Below are positions 3,984 through 47,636 of a stretch of 64,000 bases of DNA, in pieces. The stretch is from Alloyangia pacifica. GTDB lineage: Bacteria; Pseudomonadota; Alphaproteobacteria; Rhodobacterales; Rhodobacteraceae. The notes under the pieces are model-generated. The model worked only from the letters and a program-made list of their open reading frames with translations. It ran no database searches and was not told the DNA's origin. The stretch spans positions 1 through 64,000 of the forward strand of contig NZ_JAIVKX010000016.1 of assembly GCF_020524285.1 (NCBI RefSeq), read 5' to 3'. The position numbers and the translations under genes are program-made. The first letter of the stretch is position 1, and each line of letters opens with the position of its first letter.

Positions 3984-4178
3984 ATGTCAGCCGAATGGAT
4001 GAACATTCAGATCATGGAATGCGAAGACGTGATCGGCCGCGCCGTCACCGTGTTCAGGCAATCTAATGGAACCCACCAACGCTATGTGCTGGGCAACGGG
4101 CGCAAGGTCGAGGCGAACGCGGACGGCACCTTCGTCATCCCAGAGACCGCCACGGAATTGCGGGTCATGGGCATCTAG
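3984..4178 (+). CDS. small hypothetical protein, 64 residues
   Basis: A short frame with a convincing GGAGG at 3974-3978, five bases before the ATG, supports a real gene. The product (begins MSAEWMNIQIMECEDVIGRA) is acidic and looks like a compact all-beta protein, with alternating polar and hydrophobic stretches and a central YVLGNGRKVEANADGTFVI segment. No signal peptide or membrane span is visible. I do not recognise the family. It stands alone between a permease remnant and a convergent gene, with a 17-bp palindrome upstream that may be its operator. Confidence 0.5.
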   Translation: MSAEWMNIQIMECEDVIGRAVTVFRQSNGTHQRYVLGNGRKVEANADGTFVIPETATELRVMGI

Positions 4179-4208
4179 CGCGGTCTGCAGCGCGGGCCTG
4201 GGGCAAGG

Positions 4209-4958
4209 CTAGGCAGCTGTCCTTTTCCGGGTTCGTGCTGCGAGTCCGCGCATGACCTGCTCGAAATCGCCCTCAGCAAAACGTGCGACCCCATTGTGGG
4301 CGGCGCAGACGGACTTCGTGCCGCGCCATCGCGCCCCAATTTCCTCGAGCCAGCGGCAGAACTTCTCTTCCGCACCGTCTTCGGCATTCATCGCCGCCCC
4401 TAGCGTGGGATGCAGGACGAGCCGCGGCACGTACCCGCGCAGAGCTCCTGGCACAGGAAGAACATTCAGCGTGTCGTCAACGTGCAGAGACCCGCTGGCC
4501 GGATGAAATGCCAGAAGCGAGCCCGCGTGCACCTTCTCATTTTCAGAGAAATACTGGATGCCCGCCGGCAGCGAAAACTGCAGGTCGCGAAAATACCGAT
4601 CCGCCACCGCCGCGCTTTCCACGCGCTCGGTTTCCCAGGGCACCGAGGTACAGACACGATGGTGCCGCTCGGAGCCGTAGAACTTCGCGGTCGGAAAATC
4701 TCGTGCCATGGCAGCGCAGTGCAGCGTGTGGAACGGATGAAGATTGAGGACCGCTTCCACCATACTGCCATCCTGGGTCAGTCCCATGACGAGCTCGCGG
4801 ATTTCGCCATTCAATGTGTAGCTGTCCAGAAACACGAAACGGCCGTTCTGCAGCCGAACGATCGAGACCTGCGTCCCGACGTTGACGATTCCGGCCACCT
4901 TCATGGTGCAACGGATATTCCAGAAACCGCTCCCGAGGTTCACCAACCGTCGAGTCAA
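4209..4958 (-). CDS. metallo-beta-lactamase-fold-like hypothetical protein
   Basis: The product is 249 residues. Seen: a histidine cluster H74, H77, H80 (LHPFHTLHC), a later Asp pair D161-D162 (LHVDDTLNVLP) and H221 (AAHNGV). Their order and spacing resemble the HxHxxH, GD and distal His ligands of metallo-beta-lactamase-fold proteins, but with a PF insertion pattern rather than the strict motif. A TTG start at 4958 is chosen because AGGGAGAG precedes it at good spacing; the alternative is an ATG at 4904 (MKVAG). No signal peptide is seen. The substrate is unknown and the fold assignment is inference. Confidence 0.6.
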   Translation of the reverse strand: MTRRLVNLGSGFWNIRCTMKVAGIVNVGTQVSIVRLQNGRFVFLDSYTLNGEIRELVMGLTQDGSMVEAVLNLHPFHTLHCAAMARDFPTAKFYGSERHHRVCTSVPWETERVESAAVADRYFRDLQFSLPAGIQYFSENEKVHAGSLLAFHPASGSLHVDDTLNVLPVPGALRGYVPRLVLHPTLGAAMNAEDGAEEKFCRWLEEIGARWRGTKSVCAAHNGVARFAEGDFEQVMRGLAARTRKRTAA

Positions 4959-5190
4959 CGCTCTCTCCCTTTGAATTGGTGCGGCGATCTTTCGTAGCTT
5001 TTCCTCGCACCTAGGCCAATGACCTCGTTTGACCAGACCGGAAGAGTAAGTTCCGAGCGAGCCCAGCCGCGTTCACAGTCGTCATGGGTCGGGTGCCACC
5101 GTGCATGAGTGTGCCCTGCCACTCTCCCGAGGTCGGGCAACCTTCAGGTCCCGAAAACTGCGTTCACCTTCAGGTAGGCGATCACCGCGA

Positions 5191-5550
5191 CTAGTGCCGA
5201 AGTGTAATTTGGCTTGGGCTCTGGAGAATAATCTGCGGTCTTCCCTTGTAGAGCTGGACCGTTCCAGACAGTGCGATAGTCTGGCCCTCAAGTGCGCGAA
5301 CCTCTGAGAATTGCCTCGAATTACTCTTGAAGATCACACCATAGAACTCTTGATTGGGATACCGACCGCCGAAGTTTATGAAGATCGTCCCCCCACTGCT
5401 GACCGAAACCTGGCTAACAACACCTTCGACAGTAACTGAGCTTCCGACGTGGTGTGCTGAATCGCCGGGCGTTATAGTCTCAGCATGAGCTGACAGAGAA
5501 AGAAGAAGAACGAAGCCAATGGCCGAAATGATTTTACATGCGAAATTCAT
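5191..5550 (-). CDS. small secreted OB-fold-like protein
   Basis: The product is 119 residues. It begins with a clear Sec signal peptide (hydrophobic AIGFVLLLSLSAHA, likely cleavage after AHA) followed by about 95 residues with the strand pattern of an OB-fold (VTVEGVVSQVSVS, GTIFINFGG, ALSGTVQLYKGRPQIIL). Known: similar periplasmic OB domains occur in DNA-binding and stress proteins. The ATG at 5550 sits 8 bases after an AGG-rich site; an in-frame TTG two codons upstream is a less likely start. An inverted repeat at 5600-5619 lies 50 bases upstream. It is monocistronic and its role is unknown. Confidence 0.65.
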   Translation of the reverse strand: MNFACKIISAIGFVLLLSLSAHAETITPGDSAHHVGSSVTVEGVVSQVSVSSGGTIFINFGGRYPNQEFYGVIFKSNSRQFSEVRALEGQTIALSGTVQLYKGRPQIILQSPSQITLRH

Positions 5551-27160: not shown

Positions 27161-27409
27161 TCAGTGTAGCCGAGCGCGCACGAAATGGGCCAGCACGGAC
27201 TCCTCTCCCAGCACCCGAAGCGCCTCTAGTCGGTGGAGACCTTCGATCACCACGTAGCCGTATCCGTCAGGCTGGAGCTGAATTGGGGTGGTGTGCCCGT
27301 CCTCCAAAATGCTCTCGGCGAGCTTGCGGACTTTGTCCTCGCAGAGCGTCATTTTTTGCTTGAGCGAAACCCTATTGTCGCTGATCGCAACGGTATGCTT
27401 TTCCAACAT
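27161..27409 (-). CDS. small ParB/sulfiredoxin-like domain protein
   Basis: The product is about 82 residues (start MLEKHTVAISDNRVSLKQKM). It matches the N-terminal ParB-like (ParB/Srx) fold: KVRKLAESILEDGHTTPIQL, then the hallmark VVIEGLHRLEALRVLG. No partition HTH or dimer domain follows, so it is not a chromosome-partition ParB. Known: stand-alone ParB-like domains occur as nucleases, CTPases or phage/plasmid regulators. The frame stays open upstream to 27508, but that part looks non-coding and no clear ribosome site marks the start. It is isolated in a repeat-bearing stretch, suggesting mobile ancestry. Confidence 0.6.
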   Translation of the reverse strand: MLEKHTVAISDNRVSLKQKMTLCEDKVRKLAESILEDGHTTPIQLQPDGYGYVVIEGLHRLEALRVLGEESVLAHFVRARLH

Positions 27410-28147
27410 CGGTGGAGCATGGGGCAGATTGGCATCAGGCGCGAGTCCTGTCGAAGCTGGGGCGCGTGTCAATGATGTCCAAGTCATCGGGCGGGCCACC
27501 AAACGCAATACGCACTTTGCATGCGACCAGTGTCACGCCGCTATCTCGGCGTCCCTTGCCTGCGCTGAGCCGACCCACCCAGTTTTTTTTGGACAGGGCC
27601 GTTTGGCTACTTGAGCCCAAACGCGACCTTCGCCCCGAGATGCGTATGCGGCGAAGCGGACCTTCACGCCAAGAGCATGGGGCGGCAGTGGTGCGGACTT
27701 TCCGGCCATTCGGCGATTAGCTGGTGCAATCGCAGTATGACGAAGGAATTACTCGCAGCCGCAGCAAGCAGGGTTCTGCGCCGCAGCGCAGATCACGATA
27801 GCGGTCGTTCAAGGCCGCACCAAACCCGGGAGCCACAACCCACCATTCGCTGCGCCTTGCCGCAGCGCCGATGCGGACTTTTCTAACGTTCGCTGTGGCT
27901 ACCAAGGCGACCTGCCTCATCTTCAACTTGCGTCGCAAAGGCGCGGAAACGCCAGCCTTGCGATTAGAGGCAGACCCTGGAGCTGCCGCACCCCGAAACG
28001 GTCCGCGGAACATCAAATTGCCACTGCGGTCCCGCGTTCCGCCTGTTCGCCAGTAGCCGATCGAGCGCCAAGCTTTTCGGATTGGGCCGTCGCTGAACCT
28101 GCGCGAAGGCTCAGTGCACGTCTCCAATGGCGCCTTTTAACTGGATG
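27410..28147. other. about 740 bp of non-coding DNA with a dispersed repeat
   Basis: No frame here has both a start signal and a recognisable domain. The stretch contains the 64-bp repeat at 27625-27688 and GCGGACTTT-type segments near 27692 and 27870. It separates the ParB-like gene from the end of the stressosome operon. Confidence 0.5.
27625..27688. repeat. 64-bp dispersed intergenic repeat, copy A
   Basis: The copy is 59/64 identical and equal in length to 61212-61275, in the same orientation. Both contain CTTCGCC ... GGCGAAG arms that could form a 7-base stem, followed by the invariant AGCATGGGGCGGCAG. Both copies lie between genes. Confidence 0.8.
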
Positions 28148-29284
28148 TCAGGATTGCGCTGGGAACTTGATGTGCACGCGCAGTCCATCCGAACCGTCCA
28201 CGGTCAGGGTCGCGTCGTGCTGGAAGGTCAGGGTCCGGATCATCCGCCAGCCGAGAGAATTCGACCGCTCGGGACGCTCGGCATCCGGCGGCAGGCCGAC
28301 ACCATTGTCTGACACGAGCAGCGCTATGCCCTGTTTCAGATCGCCGGACACCTCGACCCGGATGAGCCCTTTGTCGCGGCCGACGAAGGCATATTTGAAC
28401 GCATTGGTGATGAGTTCACCAACGATAAGTCCGGTGTCGACAGCAAACTTGCTGTCGAGCTGTAGCGCTTCGCAGGATACGTCGATCTTGGCCGTGAGCC
28501 CGCCGCCGCTGAAGGCCCGCTCCGACGTTCTCGCGACTTCGTCCAGCATCTCCGACAGGTCGACCTGGCTGGCGTCCGTCCCGCGCTGCATCAATTCGTG
28601 GGCCTTGGCGAGCGATCCGACGCGAACTTCGAGTTCGGTCAGGACCTGGTGGGTTTCAGCCTGCTCGGCCTGCGACTTGCTCATCCGGATCAGCGCGACG
28701 ATGAGTGCCAGGTTGTTGCCGGTCCGGTGATGAAGCTCCTGCATGAGCAGGTCGCGGTCGGCGATCCCTTCGGCCAATTCGCGGTTCTGCTCGCTGAGTG
28801 CAGCGGTGGGATCCTTTGCGCTGAGATCACTCAGCGCTTCCGTCGCCTGGTCGATCAGCTGGGGACCGGCGGGCAAGATCGCAGACGGCAGGAACGCCGC
28901 GTCGATCCGCGTGCCCTCGTGCCCTGTCTCGACGTCGAAGCGCGTGGCAATCCTCTGCACGCCGCGCAGTCCCAGCCCCATGCCCGCCGAGGAGGACCGC
29001 GGGCCGTCCGGCTCGAGGTTCTCTTTCGGGATCCCGCGCCCCTGGTCGGTCACCAGAAGGCCGAGCGCGGGCTTGCCGTTCACCTCGGTGAGCGAGAAGG
29101 TCGCGCGCCCCTTCTGGCCATGCTCTATCGCGTTGCGGCCAAGCTCGACGACGGCGGTCACCGTCCGCGTTCGCTCGAACGAGCCGAACTGCAGGACGTT
29201 GGTCAGCGTCATCGCTACCTCGCGCAACCGCGCCACGTCGGCGCTCTTCTCCAGGGTCACGGTGGTAAGCTTGGCCGCCTTCAT
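28148..29284 (-). CDS. double-ATPase sensor histidine kinase of the stressosome operon
   Basis: The product is 378 residues with an unusual two-ATPase layout. Residues 1-135 form an RsbT/RsbW-like GHKL domain (VVELGRNAIEHG; VTDQGRGIP; GMGLGLRGVQRIATRF). Residues 160-250 form a HisKA_2 dimer/phosphoacceptor domain (MQELHHRTGNNLALI, H186 likely phosphorylated). The C-terminus is a second HATPase (LIVGELITNAFKYAF; VSDNGVGLP; GWRMIRTLT). No membrane segment or PAS domain is present, so input probably comes through the N-terminal module or protein partners. It overlaps the previous gene by ATGA and no response regulator is adjacent. Inference: it is an output of the stressosome. Confidence 0.88.
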   Translation of the reverse strand: MKAAKLTTVTLEKSADVARLREVAMTLTNVLQFGSFERTRTVTAVVELGRNAIEHGQKGRATFSLTEVNGKPALGLLVTDQGRGIPKENLEPDGPRSSSAGMGLGLRGVQRIATRFDVETGHEGTRIDAAFLPSAILPAGPQLIDQATEALSDLSAKDPTAALSEQNRELAEGIADRDLLMQELHHRTGNNLALIVALIRMSKSQAEQAETHQVLTELEVRVGSLAKAHELMQRGTDASQVDLSEMLDEVARTSERAFSGGGLTAKIDVSCEALQLDSKFAVDTGLIVGELITNAFKYAFVGRDKGLIRVEVSGDLKQGIALLVSDNGVGLPPDAERPERSNSLGWRMIRTLTFQHDATLTVDGSDGLRVHIKFPAQS

Positions 29285-30291
29285 TGCTCGCGCTCCCGGT
29301 TGATCCGAATGACGACGATGCTGGCGTCGTCGCGACCCCGGAAGGCCCGGTCCAGAAAGAAGCCGGCGATCAAAAGAAGGCTCTTTTTGAGCAGCCCCGG
29401 CGGGAAATGCGCTTCTCGAAGCGTTTTCAGCCCGTCGCTGTGCAGGATCACCATGTCGCCTGCCTCCAGCTGCACCGTTTCCTCGTAGCCGCGCGTCGCT
29501 GTACCGCCGATGCGGCCGTCCCGAACCGCCATGCGGCGTACGCCCTGTGCCCCGATCAGCAGCGTCGAGATATTTCCGAGACCCGTGTAGCGCAGTTCCA
29601 TCTGCGGCTGCGCGACGTGCACCAGCGCCGCCACCGCGCCGCGCCGACCGACGAGCTGCTCGGTGATCTGGCGCATCAGCTTGCCTGGCTCGGAGGACAA
29701 ACCGCCCGCGGCGAAGGCGGCGTCGGTGACTTCGGCGGCGGCCTCGGCAGCGGCGGGGCCATGGCCGAGACCATCGCAGAGCAGCACGTCGGTCGCCCGC
29801 GGGGTCTGCCGGATCTGGAAATCGTCGCCGCAGGAGTCCTCATGCGGATGGCACACCCGCAGGCCGACCGCCTCGACACCGATGTCGGACCCGTCGCCGC
29901 GCCCGCCGAAGGTGCAGACGATGGTGGTCCCGTTCTCCGGCGAGCTGAAGATGTCGAAGGTGTCTGACAGACGAACGATGGCCCCGAGGCCAAGCCCTGC
30001 GGACTCCGTGGAGCTTTCGCCGTCCTGGAACATCCGGTCGATATCCGGGATGCCCGGCCCGCGATCGGTGAAGATCATGGTGATGAGTTCGGCACCGGGG
30101 GTCCGCACGAGTTCGATCAACGCCCGGCCGCGATCGGCGTAGCGCAGGATATTCGTAGTGGCCTCTGTCGCGACGATCGCGAGTTCGTCCAGACGTGTCT
30201 CGGGCAGGCCGATCTCGGCGCCATGGCGCCGCGCCAGCCGTCGCACCACGGCGACGGCGCTCCGATCATCAATCTCGACCCACTGGTTCAT
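29281..30291 (-). CDS. RsbT-like kinase domain fused to SpoIIE/RsbX-type PP2C phosphatase
   Basis: The product is 336 residues. The first 125 or so form a GHKL anti-sigma-kinase-like domain (LDELAIVATEATTNILRYAD; FTDRGPGIPDI; GLGLGAIVRLSDTFDIF). The rest is a SpoIIE/PP2C phosphatase with metal-binding DVLLCDGLGHGPAAAEAA and a late GRDDASIVVIRI. Known: RsbX dephosphorylates RsbR/RsbS to reset the stressosome. The fused kinase domain is an addition to the Bacillus RsbX plan. It overlaps rsbT by ATGA upstream and the histidine kinase by ATGA downstream, so the four products should be made in balance. Confidence 0.88.
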   Translation of the reverse strand: MNQWVEIDDRSAVAVVRRLARRHGAEIGLPETRLDELAIVATEATTNILRYADRGRALIELVRTPGAELITMIFTDRGPGIPDIDRMFQDGESSTESAGLGLGAIVRLSDTFDIFSSPENGTTIVCTFGGRGDGSDIGVEAVGLRVCHPHEDSCGDDFQIRQTPRATDVLLCDGLGHGPAAAEAAAEVTDAAFAAGGLSSEPGKLMRQITEQLVGRRGAVAALVHVAQPQMELRYTGLGNISTLLIGAQGVRRMAVRDGRIGGTATRGYEETVQLEAGDMVILHSDGLKTLREAHFPPGLLKKSLLLIAGFFLDRAFRGRDDASIVVIRINREREQ

Positions 30292-30707
30292 AGCTTCACG
30301 CTCATGGAAACGGTTGTACCCTTCCCGGGCGCGGACCGGACCTCGAACCCGTGTGAGAGCCGCTTGGCGCCGCCAAGCCCCCTGCCCAGCCCTCCCGCGG
30401 TCGTGTATCCCTCGGTCATGGCCAGCGTCACATCTTCGATCCCCGGACCGTCGTCCCGGCATTCGACGCGCAGATACTCGTTACGTGTATCGAGATAAAT
30501 CGAAATCCGGCCACCACCACCGTGCACGATGGCGTTGCGAGCAATTTCGCTCACCGCTGTCGCGAACCGCGTGATGCGCATCACCGAGAGCCCGCGTTCC
30601 TTGAGCATTCGCGCGACCGCCTGACGCGCAGCGACAACGTCCCGGCTGGTTGCGAGCGTGATCTCCGCGAGCGCGGGCGTGTCTGATGTCCCTTCGGGAT
30701 CAGGCAC
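30288..30707 (-). CDS. rsbT: RsbT-type serine kinase
   Basis: This 139-residue GHKL kinase has N-box FATAVSEIARNAIVHG, G1 DDGPGIED and G2 GGLGRGLGGAKRLSH. Known: RsbT is held by RsbR/RsbS and on stress phosphorylates both, is released and activates a partner. Here the usual partner RsbU is absent; the downstream phosphatase fusion and histidine kinase are the candidates. The start is GTG at 30707, overlapping the rsbS end by 8 bases. Confidence 0.92.
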   Translation of the reverse strand: MPDPEGTSDTPALAEITLATSRDVVAARQAVARMLKERGLSVMRITRFATAVSEIARNAIVHGGGGRISIYLDTRNEYLRVECRDDGPGIEDVTLAMTEGYTTAGGLGRGLGGAKRLSHGFEVRSAPGKGTTVSMSVKL

Positions 30708-31053
30708 GCCGCAACTGGGAAAGCGCGTGGGTCAGGCTGAGCGCCGTGCGGATCTCGGGCAGGTACATCCCCAGTTCGACCAGGGTCACGGCCACCGCCG
30801 GGCGCATCCCGACAACGTAGGTCTCGGCCGCCAGCAGACGCGAGATCCCCGCAAGCTGGGCGATGACGCGCCCGACAAACGTATCGACGATCTCCAGCGA
30901 ACTGATGTCGAGGATCACGCCCTTGACGTTCTCCTTGGCAATCCGGTTCGAGAGGGTCTCCTGCAACTCCACGATTTCGGTATCGGTGACGTCGTCCTGA
31001 ATGGACACGAGAAGTGCGTTCTCGACCAGGTTGATGGACGTCACTCCCGACAC
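30700..31053 (-). CDS. rsbS: RsbS-type stressosome scaffold, STAS domain
   Basis: This 117-residue single-domain STAS protein has the conserved phosphorylation loop LDISSLEIVDTFVGR, matching the RsbS serine phosphorylated by RsbT. Known: RsbS and RsbR build the pseudo-icosahedral stressosome core. The start is GTG at 31053, one base after the rsbR stop. The central TYVVGMRPAVAVTLVELG and C-terminal helix complete the fold. Confidence 0.92.
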   Translation of the reverse strand: MSGVTSINLVENALLVSIQDDVTDTEIVELQETLSNRIAKENVKGVILDISSLEIVDTFVGRVIAQLAGISRLLAAETYVVGMRPAVAVTLVELGMYLPEIRTALSLTHALSQLRRA

Positions 31054-31054
31054 G

Positions 31055-31930
31055 TCAGGAAGCCTCGCTGGTCTTGATCACATAGCCGACCTTCTGCAGC
31101 GCATCGGACAGCGCCGTGCGGATGCTCGACCGGGTCGACACGGTGCCCACGTCGATGCCGAGCTGGACCATGGTCTGGGCGATCATCGGGCTGATGCCGC
31201 TGATGATGCATTCGGCCCCCATCAGACGCACGGCGGCTGCAGCCCGCAGAAGGTGCTGCGCCACTTGCGTGTCGACGGTGCCGACACCGGTGATGTCCAT
31301 GATCACCACCTCGGCCTGACGCTCGAGGATGGTCTGGAGCAGGTTCTCCATGACCTCCTGCGCCCGGGCGGAATCCAGCGTGCCGATCAGCGGCAACGTG
31401 AGAACCCGGTCCCAGAGTTCGACCACGGGTGTCGACAGTTCGAGCATTTCCTGGCGCTGACGCTCGATGATCTGGTCGCGCTCGCCGATGAAAATCTCGT
31501 TGGTATAGATCGCGAAGGCATCGACGAGGCGGGTCACCATGAGAACGTCGCGAATGAGCTTTCCGCCCTCGACGCCGGGCATGGCCTCGAGCCGCTTGAA
31601 CAGCGGCGCCTTGAGCGCCAGCACGAAGGTCGCCATCTCGGTCGGCGTGACGCCGCGACCGACGCGCTCCTTGCTGACGTCGGCCAGAACCGCGCGCAGG
31701 TCTTCCCAGGCATCATCGTCGAGGCTGAATTCCTCGTTCACGACACCAGCCCGAATGCCTTTGACAAAGGCTTTCAGGAGTTCCTGGTTCTGCCCACGAC
31801 TTTCAGAGTCGGAGAACAAGTCCGAGCGCTTCACGCCCTCCTTGACCTGGGTGCCAAGCCACTCTTCCACGACACCGGAGAAATCGGTTTCGAGGATGGT
31901 CAGGATGTTTGCCGTCGCGGTTTGCGGCAT
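31055..31930 (-). CDS. RsbR-type stressosome sensor/scaffold protein
   Basis: The product is 291 residues. An N-terminal, all-helical sensory region (about 1-150) has the pattern of the globin-like RsbR sensor domain. It is joined by a helix (RDQIIERQRQEMLELSTPVV) to a C-terminal STAS domain (LPLIGTLDSARAQEVMENLL; MDITGVGTVDTQVAQ). Both threonine positions phosphorylated by RsbT in Bacillus RsbRA are kept (ELSTPVV and DITGV). The ATG at 31930 has GAGG upstream; the frame extends 14 codons further without a site. As first gene it sets the operon's input. The signal sensed is unknown. Confidence 0.9.
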   Translation of the reverse strand: MPQTATANILTILETDFSGVVEEWLGTQVKEGVKRSDLFSDSESRGQNQELLKAFVKGIRAGVVNEEFSLDDDAWEDLRAVLADVSKERVGRGVTPTEMATFVLALKAPLFKRLEAMPGVEGGKLIRDVLMVTRLVDAFAIYTNEIFIGERDQIIERQRQEMLELSTPVVELWDRVLTLPLIGTLDSARAQEVMENLLQTILERQAEVVIMDITGVGTVDTQVAQHLLRAAAAVRLMGAECIISGISPMIAQTMVQLGIDVGTVSTRSSIRTALSDALQKVGYVIKTSEAS

Positions 31931-32375
31931 TTGCGGGAACCTCGGTTCATTGTGATGCGACCTGTAAGCCAATTAATGGGAATAAAGTCAACGGCAACGG
32001 TAACGTAGCCTGTCGCAGCGTCAGGTGGAAGGATACGTCATCAACTGACGCTGGCGGAGCCGGGGCTATTCAGTGCCTATCCCTTTGGTTAGCGCTGCCA
32101 TGCTCTTGCAAGTCTGCTGATAGAGTTCCAGGCACAGGTCAGCTGCGCTCCTATCAAGCCCGCTGGTACGAGACCCGAATTCAGGATCCGCGGCGCACGG
32201 CAACGAAGTTCGCTGTCCTACTGCAGGAGTTGATCCTGCGCGCCGCAAGGCTTCAACTCGGCAATCCTGTGAGGCAGAAGATTTCTCGACGAGCCCACTG
32301 TCGAGCTCTTGAATGGCATCCCGGGAAGCGCCACGTGCGTCCCAATGCGACGCCTTTGCGACGCTGGAGTTTGAC
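31931..32375. other. 445-bp intergenic region between rsbR and the CaCA-like gene
   Basis: This divergent promoter region has no supportable gene. No sigma-B-type or ECF-type promoter or perfect dyad was identified by eye. The stretch 32130-32330 shows coding-like base composition but no complete frame. Confidence 0.4.
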
Positions 32376-37054: not shown

Positions 37055-38665
37055 TCATTGCGTGCCGCCTGCTTGCGAGAGCTTCTCCATAACCTTGTCG
37101 AGGCTGAAGGAGGCCGCTTCTTGACGCGGCGGGAATTCCTGGAAGGTTTCGAGGAAGTTCGCCACATAGGACTGTGCCGGCACCAGCATGTAGGCGCGGT
37201 CGAGCATCCAATCGTAGTAGGTGTTCGAGGTCCGGTAGCCACGCTCGTAGGGATCGCGGCGCAGGTTGAAGATCAGCGGCGTGCGCAGGGGCGTCAGCGG
37301 CTCGATCCAGGCGCGGAACGTGCTCCAAGCCTTTTGCTCCAGGAAGGTGATCTTCCAATCGGCATAGCGCAGAGCCATCAGGTCGCCATCATCGGAGAAA
37401 TAGAAGATCTCCTTTCGCGGGCTCTCCTCGGTTTCACCGGTCAGCAATGGCAGGATGTTGTAGCCGTCGAGGTGGACCTTGTAGTCACGACCCTCGCCCA
37501 CTTCGGCGACAGTGATGCCGTCGAGCAGGTCGTCCTTGATCGTTTCGTTCCCGGCGGCGGCCAGGAAGGTCGGCAGCCAGTCCATGTGATGGACGATCTC
37601 GTTGACGACCTCGTCCTCAGGAATATGACCCGGCCAGCGCACCATCGCGGGCACACGCCAGGCGCCTTCCCAGTTGGTGTTCTTTTCACCCCAGAATGGC
37701 GTCATCCCGGCATCCGGCCAGGTGTTCATATGCGGGCCGTTGTCGGTGGAGTAGAAGACGATGGTGTTGTCGGCGATACCAAGCTCATCGAGCTTGTCGA
37801 GGAACACGCCGATATCAGCATCATGCTCGAGCATGCCGGCGGTGTATTCGTCGACCGGTTTGCCGACGATCTCGTTGGCCAGTGCCCGGTTCTCTTCACT
37901 GACGTGCGTGCGGAAGTGCATGCGGGTGCCGCTCCACCACACGAACCAAGGCGTACCCTGCTCGTTGGCGCGTTCGATGAAATCGATCGCCGCAGCAGAG
38001 GTCTCGTCATCCACGGTTTCCATACGCGTCTTCGTCAGCGGTCCGGTGTCCTCGATTTCACCGTCAGCGTAGGAGTGAATGACGCCACGGGGGCCGAAGG
38101 CTTCCCGGAAAGTCTGTCCGTCGCCGATCATCATGTCGGCCGGGTAGTCCTCGTTCTCGGGCTCTTCCTCGGCGTTGAGGTGGTAGAGGTTGCCGAAGAA
38201 CTCATCGAACCCATGGTTGGTCGGCAGGTGCTCGTCGCGGTCGCCGAGGTGGTTTTTTCCGAACTGACCGGTGGCGTACCCCTCGGCCTTGAGCAGGCCC
38301 GCGATGGTTGGATCTTCGACCTGCATCCCTTCCTGTGCGCCGGGCAGACCCACTTTGGACAGGCCGGTGCGGAACACCGACTGGCCCATGATGAAGGAGG
38401 AACGGCCGGCGGTGCAGGATTGCTCACCGTAGTAGTCGGTGAAGATCATGCCCTCTTTGGCGATCCGGTCGATGTTGGGCGTCTCGTAGCCCATCAGCCC
38501 CCGCGTGTATGCGGAAATGTTAGACTGGCCGACATCATCGCCCCAGATCACCAGAATGTTCGGTTTTGTGGCGGTGGCTGCGTCTTGAGCCGCAACTGGC
38601 ACGCTCGACACCACGACTGCGGCCAAGGTGGCTAACAATCTATGTGTTTGGTTTTTTGGTAACAT
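37055..38665 (-). CDS. periplasmic arylsulfatase (type I, formylglycine-dependent)
   Basis: The product is 536 residues with a Sec signal peptide (LLATLAAVVVSSVPVAAQ). Sulfatase landmarks are metal-binding WGDDVG (D43, D44), the modification site C84 in SCTAGRSS (C-x-A-x-R form), FGKNHLGDRDEHLPT and the distal STDNGP. C84 must be converted to formylglycine; no FGE gene is in the window. The ATG at 38665 follows GGGAG. It hydrolyses an unknown sulfate ester outside the cytoplasm and lies with the HAD phosphatase and a two-component system. Confidence 0.92.
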   Translation of the reverse strand: MLPKNQTHRLLATLAAVVVSSVPVAAQDAATATKPNILVIWGDDVGQSNISAYTRGLMGYETPNIDRIAKEGMIFTDYYGEQSCTAGRSSFIMGQSVFRTGLSKVGLPGAQEGMQVEDPTIAGLLKAEGYATGQFGKNHLGDRDEHLPTNHGFDEFFGNLYHLNAEEEPENEDYPADMMIGDGQTFREAFGPRGVIHSYADGEIEDTGPLTKTRMETVDDETSAAAIDFIERANEQGTPWFVWWSGTRMHFRTHVSEENRALANEIVGKPVDEYTAGMLEHDADIGVFLDKLDELGIADNTIVFYSTDNGPHMNTWPDAGMTPFWGEKNTNWEGAWRVPAMVRWPGHIPEDEVVNEIVHHMDWLPTFLAAAGNETIKDDLLDGITVAEVGEGRDYKVHLDGYNILPLLTGETEESPRKEIFYFSDDGDLMALRYADWKITFLEQKAWSTFRAWIEPLTPLRTPLIFNLRRDPYERGYRTSNTYYDWMLDRAYMLVPAQSYVANFLETFQEFPPRQEAASFSLDKVMEKLSQAGGTQ

Positions 38666-38827
38666 AACTGTCTCCCTGTCTGCGAAATTCTTTCGGTGCA
38701 GCCCTGGGGCCGACGTCAAACACACCGATGCCACCAAACAGATCTTGCACCGTATGCGCAGCTTGGCTGCCGCAGCGTCAGCGGAATAGTTGGACCAAGT
38801 ACCTACCTCGCCCGCGGGCGGGTGGCT

Positions 38828-39187
38828 TCAGACGTCGAGCAGCGCCGCGAGCACAGTCCGCGAAATCGGCTTGGCGATGTAGGTAGTGGCCCCTGCATTG
38901 AGACAGGCTTCTCGCGCTCCGCCGATGTCGCGACCCGTCATCACAGCGATACGCAGGTCGGGCGTACGCGCCACGAGCTTTGAAATAAGGTCGGCCCCGC
39001 CGATCCCGGGCAGGTGGAGGTCGAGTAACATGACCGCCGGAGATTGGGGCACCTCGCTGGCAAGCAGAGCTTCTCCACTGTCGAAGGTGTAGACGGAAAA
39101 GCCCAGAGATCGGACGGCACGGGACAGCGCCCGGCTGACGGCCGCGTCATCTTCGACGATCAGGACAACTCTGGGTTTCAGCTCCAT
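38828..39187 (-). CDS. single-domain response regulator
   Basis: This 119-residue receiver-only protein has the acidic pair E12-D13-D14, phosphoacceptor D56 (MLLDLHLPG), T84 (AVMTGRD) and K106 (YIAKPIS). With no output domain it is CheY-like and may serve as a phosphate sink or shuttle for the neighbouring sensor kinase. It is 54 bases downstream of the FixJ-like regulator on the same strand. Confidence 0.9.
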   Translation of the reverse strand: MELKPRVVLIVEDDAAVSRALSRAVRSLGFSVYTFDSGEALLASEVPQSPAVMLLDLHLPGIGGADLISKLVARTPDLRIAVMTGRDIGGAREACLNAGATTYIAKPISRTVLAALLDV

Positions 39188-39241
39188 TCGGCAACTCTAC
39201 GCAGTGCCGACCGATCCTCATAGTTGCCCTCTGGGCCTACA

Positions 39242-39871
39242 TCATGGCGCATCAATTCGTCTGGTGACGCTGACGCGTACGAGCTCGGCAATCGTGCGCA
39301 CTCCCATCTTCTTCATCACCCGGGCCCGGTGGACCTTTACCGTCTTCTCGGCGAGGCCAAGCTCATGCGCGATTTGCTTGTTCAGACTGCCGGCAACCAC
39401 CGCTTCCAGCACTTCCGTCTCGCGGGGCGTTAGACTCTGAAGCCGCTGCTCGTACCTCGCGGTGCCGTGCGTGTCTGCCTGCGTCTCGCTCACCCGCGTT
39501 TTGGCGGCGGCAATCGCGTCCAGGAGCTGGTCCGTCTGCACGGGCTTCGTCAGGAAATCGAAGGCCCCCTCCTTCATGGCCTTAACCCCCATGCCGATGT
39601 CACCGCGCCCGGTGAGAAACATCACCGGAAACGCCGGCAGGATCGCCGCAATCTTTTCCTGAAGTTCGAAGCCGTTCATCCGCGGCAGGTACATGTCGAG
39701 GATGGCACAGCCCGGAACATCGTGATCGAAATCGTTGAGAAACGCCTCGGCGCTCGCATGGGAACGGACGTCATATCCCGCGATCGAGACCAGCCGTGAG
39801 AGGGCCCGGCGGATGCTCTCGTCGTCGTCCACGATATGAACGAGGAAGGGTTCAGTCGCGTCCTCGCTCAT
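39242..39871 (-). CDS. FixJ/NarL-type response regulator
   Basis: This 209-residue protein has a receiver domain with D59 (AILDMYLPRM), T87 and K109 (FDFLTKP), a linker, and a LuxR-type HTH (LTPRETEVLEAVVAGSLNKQ; KTVKVHRARVMKKMGVRT). It is the direct partner of the sensor kinase, overlapping it by four bases (ATGA). Predicted to activate promoters in this sulfatase/phosphatase region when phosphorylated. Confidence 0.93.
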   Translation of the reverse strand: MSEDATEPFLVHIVDDDESIRRALSRLVSIAGYDVRSHASAEAFLNDFDHDVPGCAILDMYLPRMNGFELQEKIAAILPAFPVMFLTGRGDIGMGVKAMKEGAFDFLTKPVQTDQLLDAIAAAKTRVSETQADTHGTARYEQRLQSLTPRETEVLEAVVAGSLNKQIAHELGLAEKTVKVHRARVMKKMGVRTIAELVRVSVTRRIDAP

Positions 39872-41784
39872 GTCGGCGGCAGGGCAAGTTCGATGCGCGC
39901 CCCGTCCCTTGTGCTGCTGGCGAAGCGGAGCGTGCCGCCATGCGCTTCGGCAATTGACTGGCTGATCGAAAGGCCCAGCCCCATGCCCTGCGACTTGGAC
40001 GTCGCGAAGGGCTTGAATGGATTGTCTCGCAAGTCCTCAGGCAGGCCGGGGCCGTTGTCGGCCACCGAGAGCACGCGCCGGTCGAGTGCATCAAGACCGG
40101 TGGAAATGGTCATTTGCCGATTATCCTGTTCGGCCATCGCATCTGCCGCGTTGATGACGAGATTGAGCAGCACCTGCTGCAACTGCTGGACGTCCGCCTT
40201 TACCATGAGCGGCTCCCGAGACAGCCGCAACTGCACCGTGACGCCACGCGCAAGCATCTCATTGGAGACGAGCCTCAAGGTCGATTGCACCACCTTGTTG
40301 AGATCTGCGTCCTCGAAGCCGCCGGCACCGCTTCCCATGAGGCGCCGCAGGTTGACGATCACATCCGCGGCACGCCGGTCATCCTCGGCGATGTCACGGA
40401 GCACCTCACCAACTTCGGTCAGGTCCAGCGGGTCCTGCGCGAGCAGGGCCGAGCCCGCCTCGGCATTGGCGAGGATCGAGGTCAGGGGCTGGTTGAGCTC
40501 ATGCGCGATCGCGCCGGACAGCTCACCAAGCTGGGCGATACGCGATAGCCTCGCCATTTCAATGCGGCGCCGGGAGAGTTCTTCGGCGCTTCGGCGCCGG
40601 CGGCGGTCCATGACGATCAGCGCCGCGATCGTGCTGGACTGGAGCAGAATGATCGCCAGGGCTCCGATGATCTGCAGCCTGTAGCGCTGCCAGACGCCCG
40701 GATCGTAGTACAGAAGAACGCTCTCCGGCGGGCGCCGTTCAGGATCAAGTCCGTACCGCCTGAGCTGGCGCCAATCGAGAACGTCTGACACCGGCACCTC
40801 TACGGTATGGTTTGTGCCAGCGGGGCCTTCGAAGATCTTCAGGGCCTTATCCGCTATCGCGGCCCCTGTCTCCTCGAAGGTCGAGAAGCTGCCACCGACG
40901 ACGCCGCGCCCGATGTTGGAACTGTAGACGCCGTAGGTGGGCGCGGCCGAGACCTCGGCAATTGTCGCAAGCGCATCCGCGGGCACAAAGCGGCGACCGT
41001 CAGCATCCTCGAAGATCGTCAGAATGATCAGGATATCAGAGGGGTCGAGCGCCGCCGCCCGGTCTCGAAACTCCTGCAGGGACAGACCGGAGACAAAGTC
41101 GACTTCTATATCGCGGACATCCGACAGTCCGCCCTCCGCGAAGGACTTCCATCGCTCATCGAACACCGCCGATCCGGTGAAGATCACCGCCCGTTCCGAG
41201 TTCGGTTGTAGTTGCCGCGCCAGTTCGAAAGTCCCGCGCAGGTCATATCGCGACACGACCGCATAAAGACCCTCGACCTTCGCAAATTCTTCGCGAGTGG
41301 AGTCGAGTATACCACCGAGCACCACAGGAGCACCGGGCGCTATGCGCTCTCTGACGTTGACTGCGAGGGGCACGGCCTCCGGCCCGATGGTCAGGATCAC
41401 GTCGATGGTCTGATCACGGTATTTCGTGGCAAGCGCATCCACAAAGCGCTCCGCATCTACCTCACTCGGAAAGCGCTGAGCGTCCCGGTATTCTCCATAT
41501 ACCTCATATCTCGAGTACCTTTCCGCACCAGAAAAGACCGAAGCAATTCCGGACGCCACCGCAACGTTAGCAGCGAGGGTACTGGCGCCAGAATAGATCG
41601 CCAGGATACGAAGCTGCCTGGAAGCGTCGTCGCCCTGCGCCATCGCAGGGCAAGACCAAAGCACGATCAACAAGATGCTCATCGCAACACGCAGGCCGAA
41701 CCTGGATCGGCGCTCCAAAAACACTTTACCGGCTTCGCGTAGCGTCGTCGTAGTCAAAACCCAGGCCCCGAACTCGTGCCTCAT
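39868..41784 (-). CDS. sensor histidine kinase with ABC-substrate-binding sensor domain
   Basis: The product is 638 residues. A hydrophobic signal segment (about 33-50, ending in AMAQ) exports residues 55-345, which match the ABC_sub_bind (type 1 periplasmic binding-like) fold (ILAIYSGASTLAAN; DVILTIGPEAVPLAV; YGVYSSNIGRGVVGGSF). One membrane helix (about 370-393) leads to a HisKA domain with H428 (AIAHELNQPL) and a FixL-type HATPase (NLVINAADAM; DNGPGLP; GMGLGLSIS). A binding-protein fold as sensor suggests direct sensing of a small periplasmic ligand. The start is uncertain: an ATG at 41682 would shorten the n-region. Confidence 0.9.
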   Translation of the reverse strand: MRHEFGAWVLTTTTLREAGKVFLERRSRFGLRVAMSILLIVLWSCPAMAQGDDASRQLRILAIYSGASTLAANVAVASGIASVFSGAERYSRYEVYGEYRDAQRFPSEVDAERFVDALATKYRDQTIDVILTIGPEAVPLAVNVRERIAPGAPVVLGGILDSTREEFAKVEGLYAVVSRYDLRGTFELARQLQPNSERAVIFTGSAVFDERWKSFAEGGLSDVRDIEVDFVSGLSLQEFRDRAAALDPSDILIILTIFEDADGRRFVPADALATIAEVSAAPTYGVYSSNIGRGVVGGSFSTFEETGAAIADKALKIFEGPAGTNHTVEVPVSDVLDWRQLRRYGLDPERRPPESVLLYYDPGVWQRYRLQIIGALAIILLQSSTIAALIVMDRRRRRSAEELSRRRIEMARLSRIAQLGELSGAIAHELNQPLTSILANAEAGSALLAQDPLDLTEVGEVLRDIAEDDRRAADVIVNLRRLMGSGAGGFEDADLNKVVQSTLRLVSNEMLARGVTVQLRLSREPLMVKADVQQLQQVLLNLVINAADAMAEQDNRQMTISTGLDALDRRVLSVADNGPGLPEDLRDNPFKPFATSKSQGMGLGLSISQSIAEAHGGTLRFASSTRDGARIELALPPT

Positions 41785-45302: not shown

Positions 45303-47636
45303 ATGAAGAGATTTTTCATTGCGGTTGCCGTGCTGGTGCTTGCGAGCCAGGCCCACGCCCAGGACTGGCCCGACCGCAACAAGCTGCCGGTTCCGCTCGC
45401 CCCTTTTGAGGGCACCATCGGCGAGACCTACGAGGACTCCGAGCCCGACTGGCAGGATCCAGTCGCAGCGCCTGATGACGCGCCCAACGTCATCGTCATC
45501 CTCCTCGACGACGTGGGATTTGGTCAGACCTCAACCTTCGGCGGGCTGATCCCGACCCCAGCGCTTGACCAACTCGCCGATGAGGGGCTGCGCTTTACTC
45601 GTTTCCACACGACCGCCATCTGCGGCCCTTCGCGCGCGGCGCTGCTTACCGGGCGCAACCACCACAGCGCGGGCAACGGTTTCCTCATGGAGTGGGCGAC
45701 GGGCTTTCCGAGCTACTCGACCATGCTGCCGAAGGAGACGGCGACCATCGCCGAAATCCTCAAGGACAACGGCTACGCCACCTGGTGGTTCGGCAAAAAT
45801 CACAACACGCCGGACTGGGAACAGACGGTCGCCGGTCCCTTCGACCGCTGGCCCACCGGCATGGGCTTCGACTATTTCTATGGCTTCAATTCCGGAGAGA
45901 CGCACCAATACTATCCGGTGCTCTTCGAGAACACCGTCCCGGTCGAACCCGATAAGACGCCGGAAGAAGGCTACCACTTCATGACCGACATGACGGACCG
46001 AGCCATTGCGCGAATGAAGTTCTCGAAGTCGGTCGCCCCAGAAAAGCCGTTCTTCATGTATTTTGCCCCCGGCGCCATGCACGCACCGCACCATGTCACC
46101 GCCGAGTGGCGCCAGCAATTCGACGGCGCCTTTGACATGGGCTGGGAGGAGTACCGAAATCAGGTCTTCGCCCGCCAGCAGGAAATGGGAATTGTCCCCG
46201 AAGGTACCGAGCTGACGCCTCGCCCCGACTGGGTACCCGCCTGGGACACGCTGAGTGAGGACCAGAAGGACGTCTACAACGCGCTCTTCGAGAATTTCGC
46301 CGGCTATTTTGCTTTTACCGACCACGAGGTCGGGAGGCTGCTTGATGCGGTTAAGGAGCTACCAGACGCCGAGAACACCATGGTGGTCTACATCGTCGGC
46401 GACAACGGCGCGTCCTCTGAAGGCGGGCCAGACGGCACGCTCAACGAGATCATGAATCTCAACGGAATCCCCACCGAGATCGAGGACATCATCGCCAATC
46501 TCGACAAGCTGGGCGGGCCGGAGTCCGAACCGCACTATCCGGTCGGCTGGGCCTGGGCGGGCAACACGCCGTTCCAGTGGGTCAAGCAGGTGGCCTCGCA
46601 CCTCGGCGGCACGCGCAACCCGATGGTGATCAGCTGGCCCGCGCGGATCGAACATGACGACGCGCCGCGCACTGCCTTCCTGCACCTCGTGGACGTGGTG
46701 CCGACCATCCTCGAGGCGGCACATATCCCCATGCCTGACACCGTCAACGGCATCGACCAGAAGCCGCTCGAGGGGGAGAGCTTCCTCGCCAGCTTCGCCG
46801 ACGGCAGTTACGTGGGTCGCACCCAGCAGTATTTCGAAGTGCTCTCCAACCGCTCGATGTACGCCGACGGATGGAAAGCCAACGCGCAGCACACCTTGCC
46901 TTGGCGGCAAGACCTGGCGCCCGGCAACTGGGATCAGGACAAGTGGGAACTCTACAACCTTGACGAGGACTTCTCGGAAGCCAATGACCTTGCCGCCGAT
47001 AACCCCGAGAAGCTGGAGGAGTTGAAGGCGATGCTGGACGACGCGTTCGAGAAATACGGTGTTCTGCCTCTGGACGACCGCGGGGCGGGCAGGCTCAGCA
47101 TTCCGAAGCCGCCGGTGCCCGGCACGGTGAAGGGCAACAAGACTTTCAGCTACTCTACGGGGGCCATCCGCATCCCTGAGCCCGCCGCGCCGCCGATGAA
47201 GAACACCTCCTGGACGCTGACAGCCAAGGTCGAGACGGAAGGCCCGCAGACTGAGGGCGTGATCATGGGCTTCGGCGGTGTCGCCGCCGGCATCGTCCTC
47301 TATCTCGACGCAGGTGTTCCCGTGTTCGACTACAACCTCTTCGAAGCACATACAGTGCTGAAGGGCACCGAACCGCTTCCCGAGGGCGAGGCTGAGATCA
47401 CCCTCGACTTCGCCTACCTCGGTGCTGAGGGGGAGGCCGGCAAGGGTGCCGAGATCACGCTTTACGTCGACGGCACCGAAGTTGCCAAAGGCGGCATGGA
47501 ATCGACCGTCGCGGGTCGCTTCGGTGTCGACACCTTCGGCATCGGAGAAGACAGCGGGCAACCCGTGACGACGGCCTACAAGGCGCCTTTCAAGTTCACT
47601 GGTGGGATCGAGAGCGTGGTAGTCGAGGTTAAGTGA
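45303..47636 (+). CDS. large secreted arylsulfatase (AtsA-like) with C-terminal beta domain
   Basis: The product is 777 residues with a Sec signal peptide ([17 protein letters not shown]). The N-terminal 570 residues form a type I sulfatase: LLDDVGFG (D69, D70), modification site C107 in [13 protein letters not shown] (C-x-P-x-R), GKNH and [10 protein letters not shown]. After a helical stretch the last 150 residues look like an added beta-sandwich ([29 protein letters not shown]). The two sulfatases in this window differ in length and motif, so their substrates probably differ. It is divergent from a Crp-like regulator. Confidence 0.92.

Follow-up and report, generated by a model that had tools for sequence, protein, structure and literature searches.

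An RsbT-like domain on the output histidine kinase of a stressosome operon in Alloyangia pacifica

A stressosome operon with RsbT-like domains on two downstream proteins

The DNA analysed here, referred to as the window, is a stretch of 64,000 nucleotides from the marine alphaproteobacterium Alloyangia pacifica (contig NZ_JAIVKX010000016.1, positions 1 to 64,000). At 28148-31930, on the minus strand, it carries a stressosome operon of five tightly coupled genes, which encode RsbR, RsbS, RsbT, an RsbX-like phosphatase (X) and a histidine kinase (HK). Its unusual feature is that an RsbT-like domain is fused to both the phosphatase and the kinase. The domain that starts the kinase, hereafter the H domain, is about 135 residues long (residues 1-135; 28880-29284), has a predicted SpoIIAB/RsbW-type fold and is proposed to be a module for docking on the STAS shell of the stressosome. 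The account that we tentatively adopt, giving it somewhat less than an even chance, is that of an RsbT-mimic stressosome, in which the kinase docks on the shell through its H domain, stress releases it, and the kinase may feed a PhyR-type receiver.

All five operon proteins gave Pfam domain calls above the cut-offs. RsbR (31055-31930) consists of an RsbRD_N sensor domain and a STAS domain, and its matches among solved structures are RsbR-type proteins. RsbS (30700-31053) is a STAS scaffold whose matches among solved structures are proteins named RsbS or RsbT antagonist. RsbT (30288-30707) is a switch serine/threonine kinase of the SpoIIAB/RsbT-type GHKL group, with a HATPase_c_2 domain. These three contiguous genes thus have the composition of a stressosome RST module, and a PP2C phosphatase gene follows directly, as expected for an adjacent RsbX. 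This feedback phosphatase (29281-30291) has an additional RsbT-like N-terminal domain, called as HATPase_c_2 (about 29902-30291), before its PP2C/SpoIIE domain (about 29425-29796). The output kinase (28148-29284) combines HATPase_c_2, HisKA_2/HWE and HATPase_c. A single base separates rsbR from rsbS, rsbS and rsbT overlap by 8 bases, and the last two junctions, T/X and X/HK, each share an ATGA. A first-pass annotation of this DNA had described five closely coupled genes on one strand and a complete RST module with a phosphatase; open reading frames, junctions, Pfam domains and alignments to solved proteins bear out both descriptions. It had overlooked, however, the RsbT-like domain of the kinase and a second copy of the operon in the same genome.

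Fold, phylogeny and conserved residues of the H domain

Predicted alone, the H domain gave an AlphaFold2 (AF2) model with a mean confidence score (pLDDT) of 86.7. Its fold matches SpoIIAB with a Z score of 16.1 (root-mean-square deviation 2.7, 130 aligned residues), followed by RsbW (Z 15.1), UsfX (14.4), LvrC (11.8) and SiaB (11.7), whereas the best listed histidine-kinase domain reaches only 8.7; a Foldseek ranking agrees. Searched by sequence, the H domain alone had no match among solved structures at 0.001. The domain thus has a SpoIIAB-like fold together with the ATP motifs of the GHKL family: the Glu of the N-box is present in 23/23 H domains, the Asn in 22/23 and the G2 glycines in 22-23/23. 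The Arg aligned to SpoIIAB R20, a residue with a functional role, is kept in 22/23 H domains, 32/35 X domains and 37/41 RsbT proteins; this Arg and the N-box Glu/Asn are almost always present in H, X and T alike.

A tree of 101 domains groups all H domains in a single clade (23/23, ultrafast bootstrap 100) and 32/35 X domains in another (bootstrap 96), while 30/41 RsbT proteins group together at 98 and 31 at 62. The tree included 14 of the 33 seed loci (13 for H) and 30 of the 38 survey loci described below, the survey loci outside it being L134, L135, L143, L144, L148, L153, L154 and L163, together with the output of L145. It was read by bipartitions only, because the outgroup RbaW, unmatched by the profiles, was left out. 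The domains of H, X and T thus make up separate lines, of which that of H has switched its C-terminal partner: it is joined to HisKA_2 kinases, to HisKA-receiver hybrids and, in locus L072 of a Syntrophomonadaceae bin, to one PAS-GGDEF-HD protein. Output proteins that bear an H domain thus come from Pseudomonadota and, at one locus of a metagenome bin, from Bacillota.

Outputs of other stressosome loci

A kinase gene missing from most orthologous operons would have refuted the first-pass annotation. Close orthologues show no such loss, but outputs vary in a wider survey of 38 loci, whose output domains come from Pfam for most and from custom profiles only for L143, L144, L148, L150 and L151; L134 and L135 are truncated by contig ends. 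A clear H domain starts the output in 11 loci. It precedes HisKA_2 in L129 and L131 and further kinases in L130, L133, L146-L150, L152 and L155; the seven of these nine that were scanned with Pfam (all except L148 and L150) are HisKA kinases with receivers. Four loci have RsbU_N outputs (L137, L138, L157 and L160), and none of the scanned loci has both an H domain and RsbU_N. The remaining outputs open with a coiled coil or with no recognised domain, or are truncated at contig ends.

The type of output goes with the type of phosphatase. X has two domains in 11/11 clear H loci and one domain in 4/4 RsbU_N loci (p = 0.0007 by Fisher tests, which here and below count genomes or loci as independent although they are related). 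Two further outputs start with a degenerate H-like domain, in L145 (about 4154-5482; E 3e-22) and in L140 (3918-6893; E 5e-12). Both have lost the ATP motifs but retain the Arg helix, as expected for docking, and the result for L145, whose X has two domains, slightly helps the docking reading. A free-standing second RsbT-like gene lies between rsbT and a one-domain rsbX at L139:3195-3608 and at L157:3159-3632.

These degenerate domains also bear on another reading, in which the H domain works as an active kinase of the anti-sigma type on some other STAS protein or on a sigma factor, as a second Ser/Thr branch beside the His-Asp one. The nearly complete conservation of the N-box Glu and Asn and of the G2 glycines would fit, as would the fold match to SpoIIAB, which has been solved with sigma-F and with SpoIIAA. 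Since in both L145 and L140 the equivalent operon position is taken by a domain without ATP motifs, we regard this reading as quite improbable.

A proposed docking mechanism

By homology, RsbR and RsbS would build the STAS shell, with RsbT as the switch kinase. The H domain would bind this shell in the manner of RsbT and hold the kinase inactive or in a fixed arrangement. When RsbR senses stress, RsbT would phosphorylate T58 of RsbS and S187 and T221 of RsbR, and the phosphorylated shell would free both RsbT and the H domain. The freed HisKA_2 kinase could then autophosphorylate and pass its phosphate in trans to a receiver, most likely PhyR or a single-domain regulator resembling the REC domain of PhyR, through which the stressosome would feed the alphaproteobacterial general stress response (GSR). 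X would reset the shell, targeted to it by its own RsbT-like domain. Docking, release, control of the kinase and the identity of the receiver are parts that we infer, and our confidence in the scheme stays tentative because binding, release and phosphotransfer all have this character.

The phosphosites were placed by alignment to solved RsbS and RsbR proteins and to known sites, namely Thr175, Thr209 and Ser56 of Listeria and S59 of Bacillus subtilis (PMC9237128). The predicted sites are S187 (LDSARA; 31370-31372) and T221 (VDTQVA; 31268-31270) in RsbR and T58 (VDTF; 30880-30882) in RsbS. The T58 position holds Thr in 21/22 rows of the RsbS alignment and Ser in L072. Both RsbR and RsbS thus keep the conserved phosphoacceptor positions of stressosome proteins, as the first-pass annotation had claimed, but the motifs it quoted miss the sites: ELSTPVV and DITGV were wrongly taken as the phosphosites of RsbR, and DISSLEIVD in RsbS ends one residue before T58.

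SpoIIAB-type proteins dimerise, and rather than docking on the shell, the H domain could receive RsbT, for instance through RsbT-H pairing. Free RsbT would then activate the kinase by binding or phosphorylation, in a classical relay. Such activation by free RsbT is known for RsbU of B. subtilis and works through RsbU_N (PMC12143880), and an RsbT-dependent phosphorylation of downstream kinases has been proposed by Heinz et al. (PMC9237108). The kinase of the window, however, has no RsbU_N match, and its H domain resembles the STAS-binding partner itself, down to the Arg equivalent to SpoIIAB R20; such a relay is in our judgement unlikely, though a serious contender.

The kinase core and its candidate receiver

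The kinase core has the features of an HWE/HisKA_2 kinase, with a HATPase_c domain and a HisKA_2 dimerisation/phosphoacceptor region (28529-28738; residues 183-252). H185 and H186, the N-box and the G1 residues are invariant in 19/19 aligned sequences, which suggests that the kinase should be active. Its core fold is nearest to EL346, with the Brucella LOV-HK among the top matches, and its best NCBIfam match is PhyK, far under the cut-off. Pfam finds no RsbU_N at its N-terminus and HATPase_c_2 there instead, and the kinase has no receiver of its own.

The first-pass annotation had argued that this module must report to something other than PhyR/NepR/EcfG. This argument found no support. Contig C32 of the genome (5.7 Mb, 49 contigs) carries a PhyR-NepR-EcfG locus, with PhyR over its cut-off, NepR and an open reading frame that by eye resembles an ECF sigma factor, as well as a HisKA_2 kinase that NCBIfam places closest to PhyK, below the cut-off. 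HWE/HisKA_2 kinases are reported as coordinators of the alphaproteobacterial GSR (PMC12148442), and their tie to PhyR is also described in PMC5964349. With this locus present and a kinase of this family in the operon, the GSR is a leading candidate rather than excluded. NepR was found in 7/7 operon-bearing genomes of the family compared with 82/191 others (p = 0.003; two of the 89 NepR genomes score under the curated cut-off), and in 12/20 survey genomes tested. In addition, three distinct loci (L053/L077, L054/L082 and L081/L169) among 35 scanned sources, some of which are the same locus, have a single-domain receiver gene upstream of rsbR and in its orientation; in L053, a hybrid kinase stands between this receiver and rsbR. 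The best match of these receivers is the PRK13435 regulator family, with PhyR second or third, all under the cut-offs. The family of the core, the co-occurrence with NepR and these PhyR-REC-like regulators make PhyR or a PhyR-like regulator the best candidate for the putative receiver.

Another receiver has to be weighed. Contig C7 encodes a REC-SpoIIE protein (L026:877-2118) and contig C3 carries STAS and HATPase genes resembling RbaV and RbaW, so the kinase might phosphorylate the REC domain of an RbaY-like REC-PP2C protein, which would dephosphorylate RbaV within an RbaY-RbaV-RbaW partner switch; RbaY of Rhodobacter capsulatus has an N-terminal REC domain (PMC3999984). The loci scanned for receivers, however, show no REC-PP2C gene next to the operon, the receivers that neighbour it in three loci resemble PhyR-REC, and HWE/HisKA_2 kinases are linked in print to the PhyR system (PMC12148442, PMC5964349). 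We consider this routing improbable.

Several observations tell against the docking mechanism or its PhyR branch. First, the ATP motifs are intact in most H domains, so that catalysis by the H domain may be possible. Second, L140 combines its H-like domain with a one-domain X and violates the strict rule; counting L145 and L140 brings the test of H against X type to p 0.0021. Third, 14 of the 26 two-domain-X loci with an output have no H or clearly H-like domain (11 have a clear one and L145 a degenerate one), so the notion that a two-domain X always goes with an H output is false. This number falls to 12 if the weak H-like traces in L162:3624-5618 (E 3e-4) and L166:2547-5036 (E 4e-4) count, which we distrust because a match to an ordinary kinase region in L154 reached E 5e-4 in that search. 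Fourth, no receiver adjoins the window operon or its second copy. Finally, NepR occurs in 20/20 genomes of the genus, operon or not, and its association within the family may stem from relatedness or genome size. One genome with a HisKA_2-type operon (G310, locus L131) has no NepR match, while NepR accompanies, for example, RsbU_N loci in G460, G568 and G899 and hybrid outputs in G275, G692, G718 and G725. The association is thus not specific to this kinase type, which slightly weakens the PhyR reading.

Distribution and synteny

RsbS is present in 7/198 genomes of the family (own genome included), 14/385 of the class and 29/398 of the phylum; these genome sets overlap, and the weakest matches are partly RsbR or other STAS proteins. 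The kinase is found in 9/20 genomes of the genus, own genome included, and in 60 plasmid records, 58 of them from Phaeobacter; the three annotated plasmid records that were inspected all have the five genes. With RsbS in few genomes and the kinase on many plasmid records, the operon is thus patchy and often plasmid-borne. One such copy lies on the 262-kb plasmid pPGA1_262 of Phaeobacter inhibens DSM 17395 (L073; NC_018291 79498-83316).

Scanning the named genomes with RsbR yielded 20 loci, from Alloyangia, Salipiger, Thioclava, Sulfitobacter, Pseudooceanicola, Pseudoruegeria, Tropicimonas, Roseibium, Pacificimonas, uncultured Rhodobacteraceae and Sphingomonadaceae, and the Syntrophomonadaceae bin. 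The order R-S-T-X-HK occurs in 26/26 full-length alphaproteobacterial loci (L009, L037-L042 and L053-L071), among which L009 is the second copy of the own genome, while L037 and L057 probably represent a single contig; eight short loci (L044-L051) show T-X-HK. The synteny of the kinase gene, a proposed check of the earlier reading, is thus confirmed by its constant place in orthologous operons. In another reading, the kinase would serve as an input or form a co-transcribed module of its own, and the stressosome would report to an unlinked partner, which would agree with the lack of a receiver in or beside the window operon. We rate this as very improbable given the same place of the kinase in all 26 loci and in the three plasmid records, and given that H domains mark outputs both in Pseudomonadota and in the Bacillota bin.

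Before rsbR, on the minus strand, a sigma70-like promoter is seen at 31963-31991, with TTGACT (31986-31991), a 17-base spacer and CTTACA (31963-31968). A TTGAC box stands 57-61 bases 5' of rsbR in 18/24 other loci, and the operon therefore has its own conserved sigma70-like promoter. An EcfG-type promoter, which would have indicated feedback from the GSR sigma factor, was found in 0/25 upstream regions (0.1-0.35 expected by chance) and was discarded; in this genome the motif has one occurrence, at the phyR-nepR locus.

The second copy and the genome context

The second complete R-S-T-X-HK operon lies on contig C13 (C13:8164-11946; L009). The two copies share 88-95% DNA identity per gene and 91-99% protein identity, and their ratio of nonsynonymous to synonymous divergence (dN/dS) of 0.02-0.15 points to purifying selection; both copies therefore appear to be maintained. 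Their flanks are also alike, over 125 bases upstream (80%) and 248 bases downstream (78%); the latter stretch, past the kinase stop (27887-28134 in the window, 12037-12284 in L009), looks non-coding. The dS between copies is 0.14-0.49, with 0.14-0.26 for R, S and T and 0.49 for X and HK, and the lower values could reflect gene conversion. A recent duplication was rejected on the basis of this range and of the window copy being nearer to that of A. pacifica DSM 26894 than to its paralogue, which is clear for X and HK; an older duplication or a transfer seems likelier.

The first-pass annotation had reported RsbU, RsbV and RsbW as absent from the window. Searches for STAS, HATPase_c_2 and SpoIIE agree, as they match only inside the operon on this contig; sigma-factor families were not searched. 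It had also named an RsbU/sigma-B-like branch elsewhere in the genome, responding to this RsbT, as an outcome that would refute it. No protein of the genome matched RsbU_N, the control matching in B. subtilis only. No RsbU-type target for this RsbT was therefore found, and output through RsbU was rejected.

Other genes of the window were noted in passing. Downstream of the operon, a small open reading frame at 27161-27508 appears ParB-like by eye, without a Pfam match at 0.001. Two genes look sulfatase-like by eye (37055-38737 and 45303-47636), and plasmid-record genes that match over 37055-38737 are annotated as arylsulfatase. A separate two-component cluster at 38828-41784 comprises a single REC protein, a LuxR-type regulator and a kinase that seems to have a signal or membrane part, and a similar cluster, its kinase annotated in pieces, lies on another Alloyangia pacifica plasmid (L167). 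These genes were not taken as partners of the stressosome: the cluster has its own kinase, and the similar plasmid cluster lies in a 16-kb stretch with no stressosome gene.

Relation to known systems and implications

The first-pass annotation had thought this exact output arrangement worth a look. Its uniqueness is not supported, since published RST modules include some with two-component outputs (PMC9237108, PMC10014275) and others with c-di-GMP or phosphatase outputs (PMC9237108, PMC12143880). A close likeness is with RSTX-D1-D2 of Vibrio vulnificus, which also has an RSTX core, no sigma-B and, in the same locus, two-component genes directly downstream (PMC9237108, PMC10014275). As described in these sources, however, the Vibrio RsbR has a haem-globin sensor, its X is a PP2C of one domain and no RsbU_N is detected in D1, whereas here RsbR is of the RsbRD_N type and both X and the kinase carry RsbT-like domains. 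Heinz et al. report that the majority of the downstream proteins considered lack RsbU_N, and no positive interaction of RsbT with D1 (PMC9237108).

In RsbU_N outputs such as RsbU of B. subtilis, MtG of Moorella and the already published RsbU_N-bearing kinases of proteobacteria, an N-terminal module likewise ties exchangeable effectors, of phosphatase, GGDEF or kinase type, to the stressosome (PMC12143880). There the coupling module is the RsbT-binding RsbU_N, whereas here it is RsbT-like. The sigma-B operon (RsbRSTUVW-SigB-RsbX) has an RsbU_N-type RsbU, unlike the genome studied here. With PhyK, LOV-HK and EL346, the GSR kinases of the HWE/HisKA_2 family, the kinase shares the family and fold of its core, but the sensor part is replaced by the RsbT-like domain and the gene lies inside a stressosome operon. 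The RbaV-RbaW-RbaY system of R. capsulatus has similar STAS, HATPase and REC-PP2C genes elsewhere in the A. pacifica genome, unlinked to the operon, and RbaY carries REC and not RsbU_N (PMC3999984). The literature searched mentions no output kinase with a fused RsbT-like domain, and older surveys may hold one.

How stressosomes without sigma-B deliver their signal is the question to which these observations speak: a monophyletic RsbT-like domain at the N-terminus of one class of outputs is a concrete and testable candidate for a coupling device, and it lets effectors be predicted from sequence. An output kinase with a built-in relative of the switch protein suggests a direct way to plug stress sensors into different outputs. 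We put forward more speculatively, as a rather doubtful extension, that such operons constitute a separate class of stressosomes, in which the STAS shell would directly capture and release interchangeable RsbT-mimic effectors (histidine kinases, hybrid kinases and a GGDEF-HD enzyme), with no need of free RsbT and RsbU_N as go-betweens, and in which the alphaproteobacterial effector would be a GSR kinase linking the Bacillus-type stressosome to PhyR-NepR-EcfG. If the alphaproteobacterial version does feed PhyR, two general stress systems that have been studied separately would join into a single pathway in marine roseobacters, among them Phaeobacter with its operon on plasmids such as pPGA1_262.

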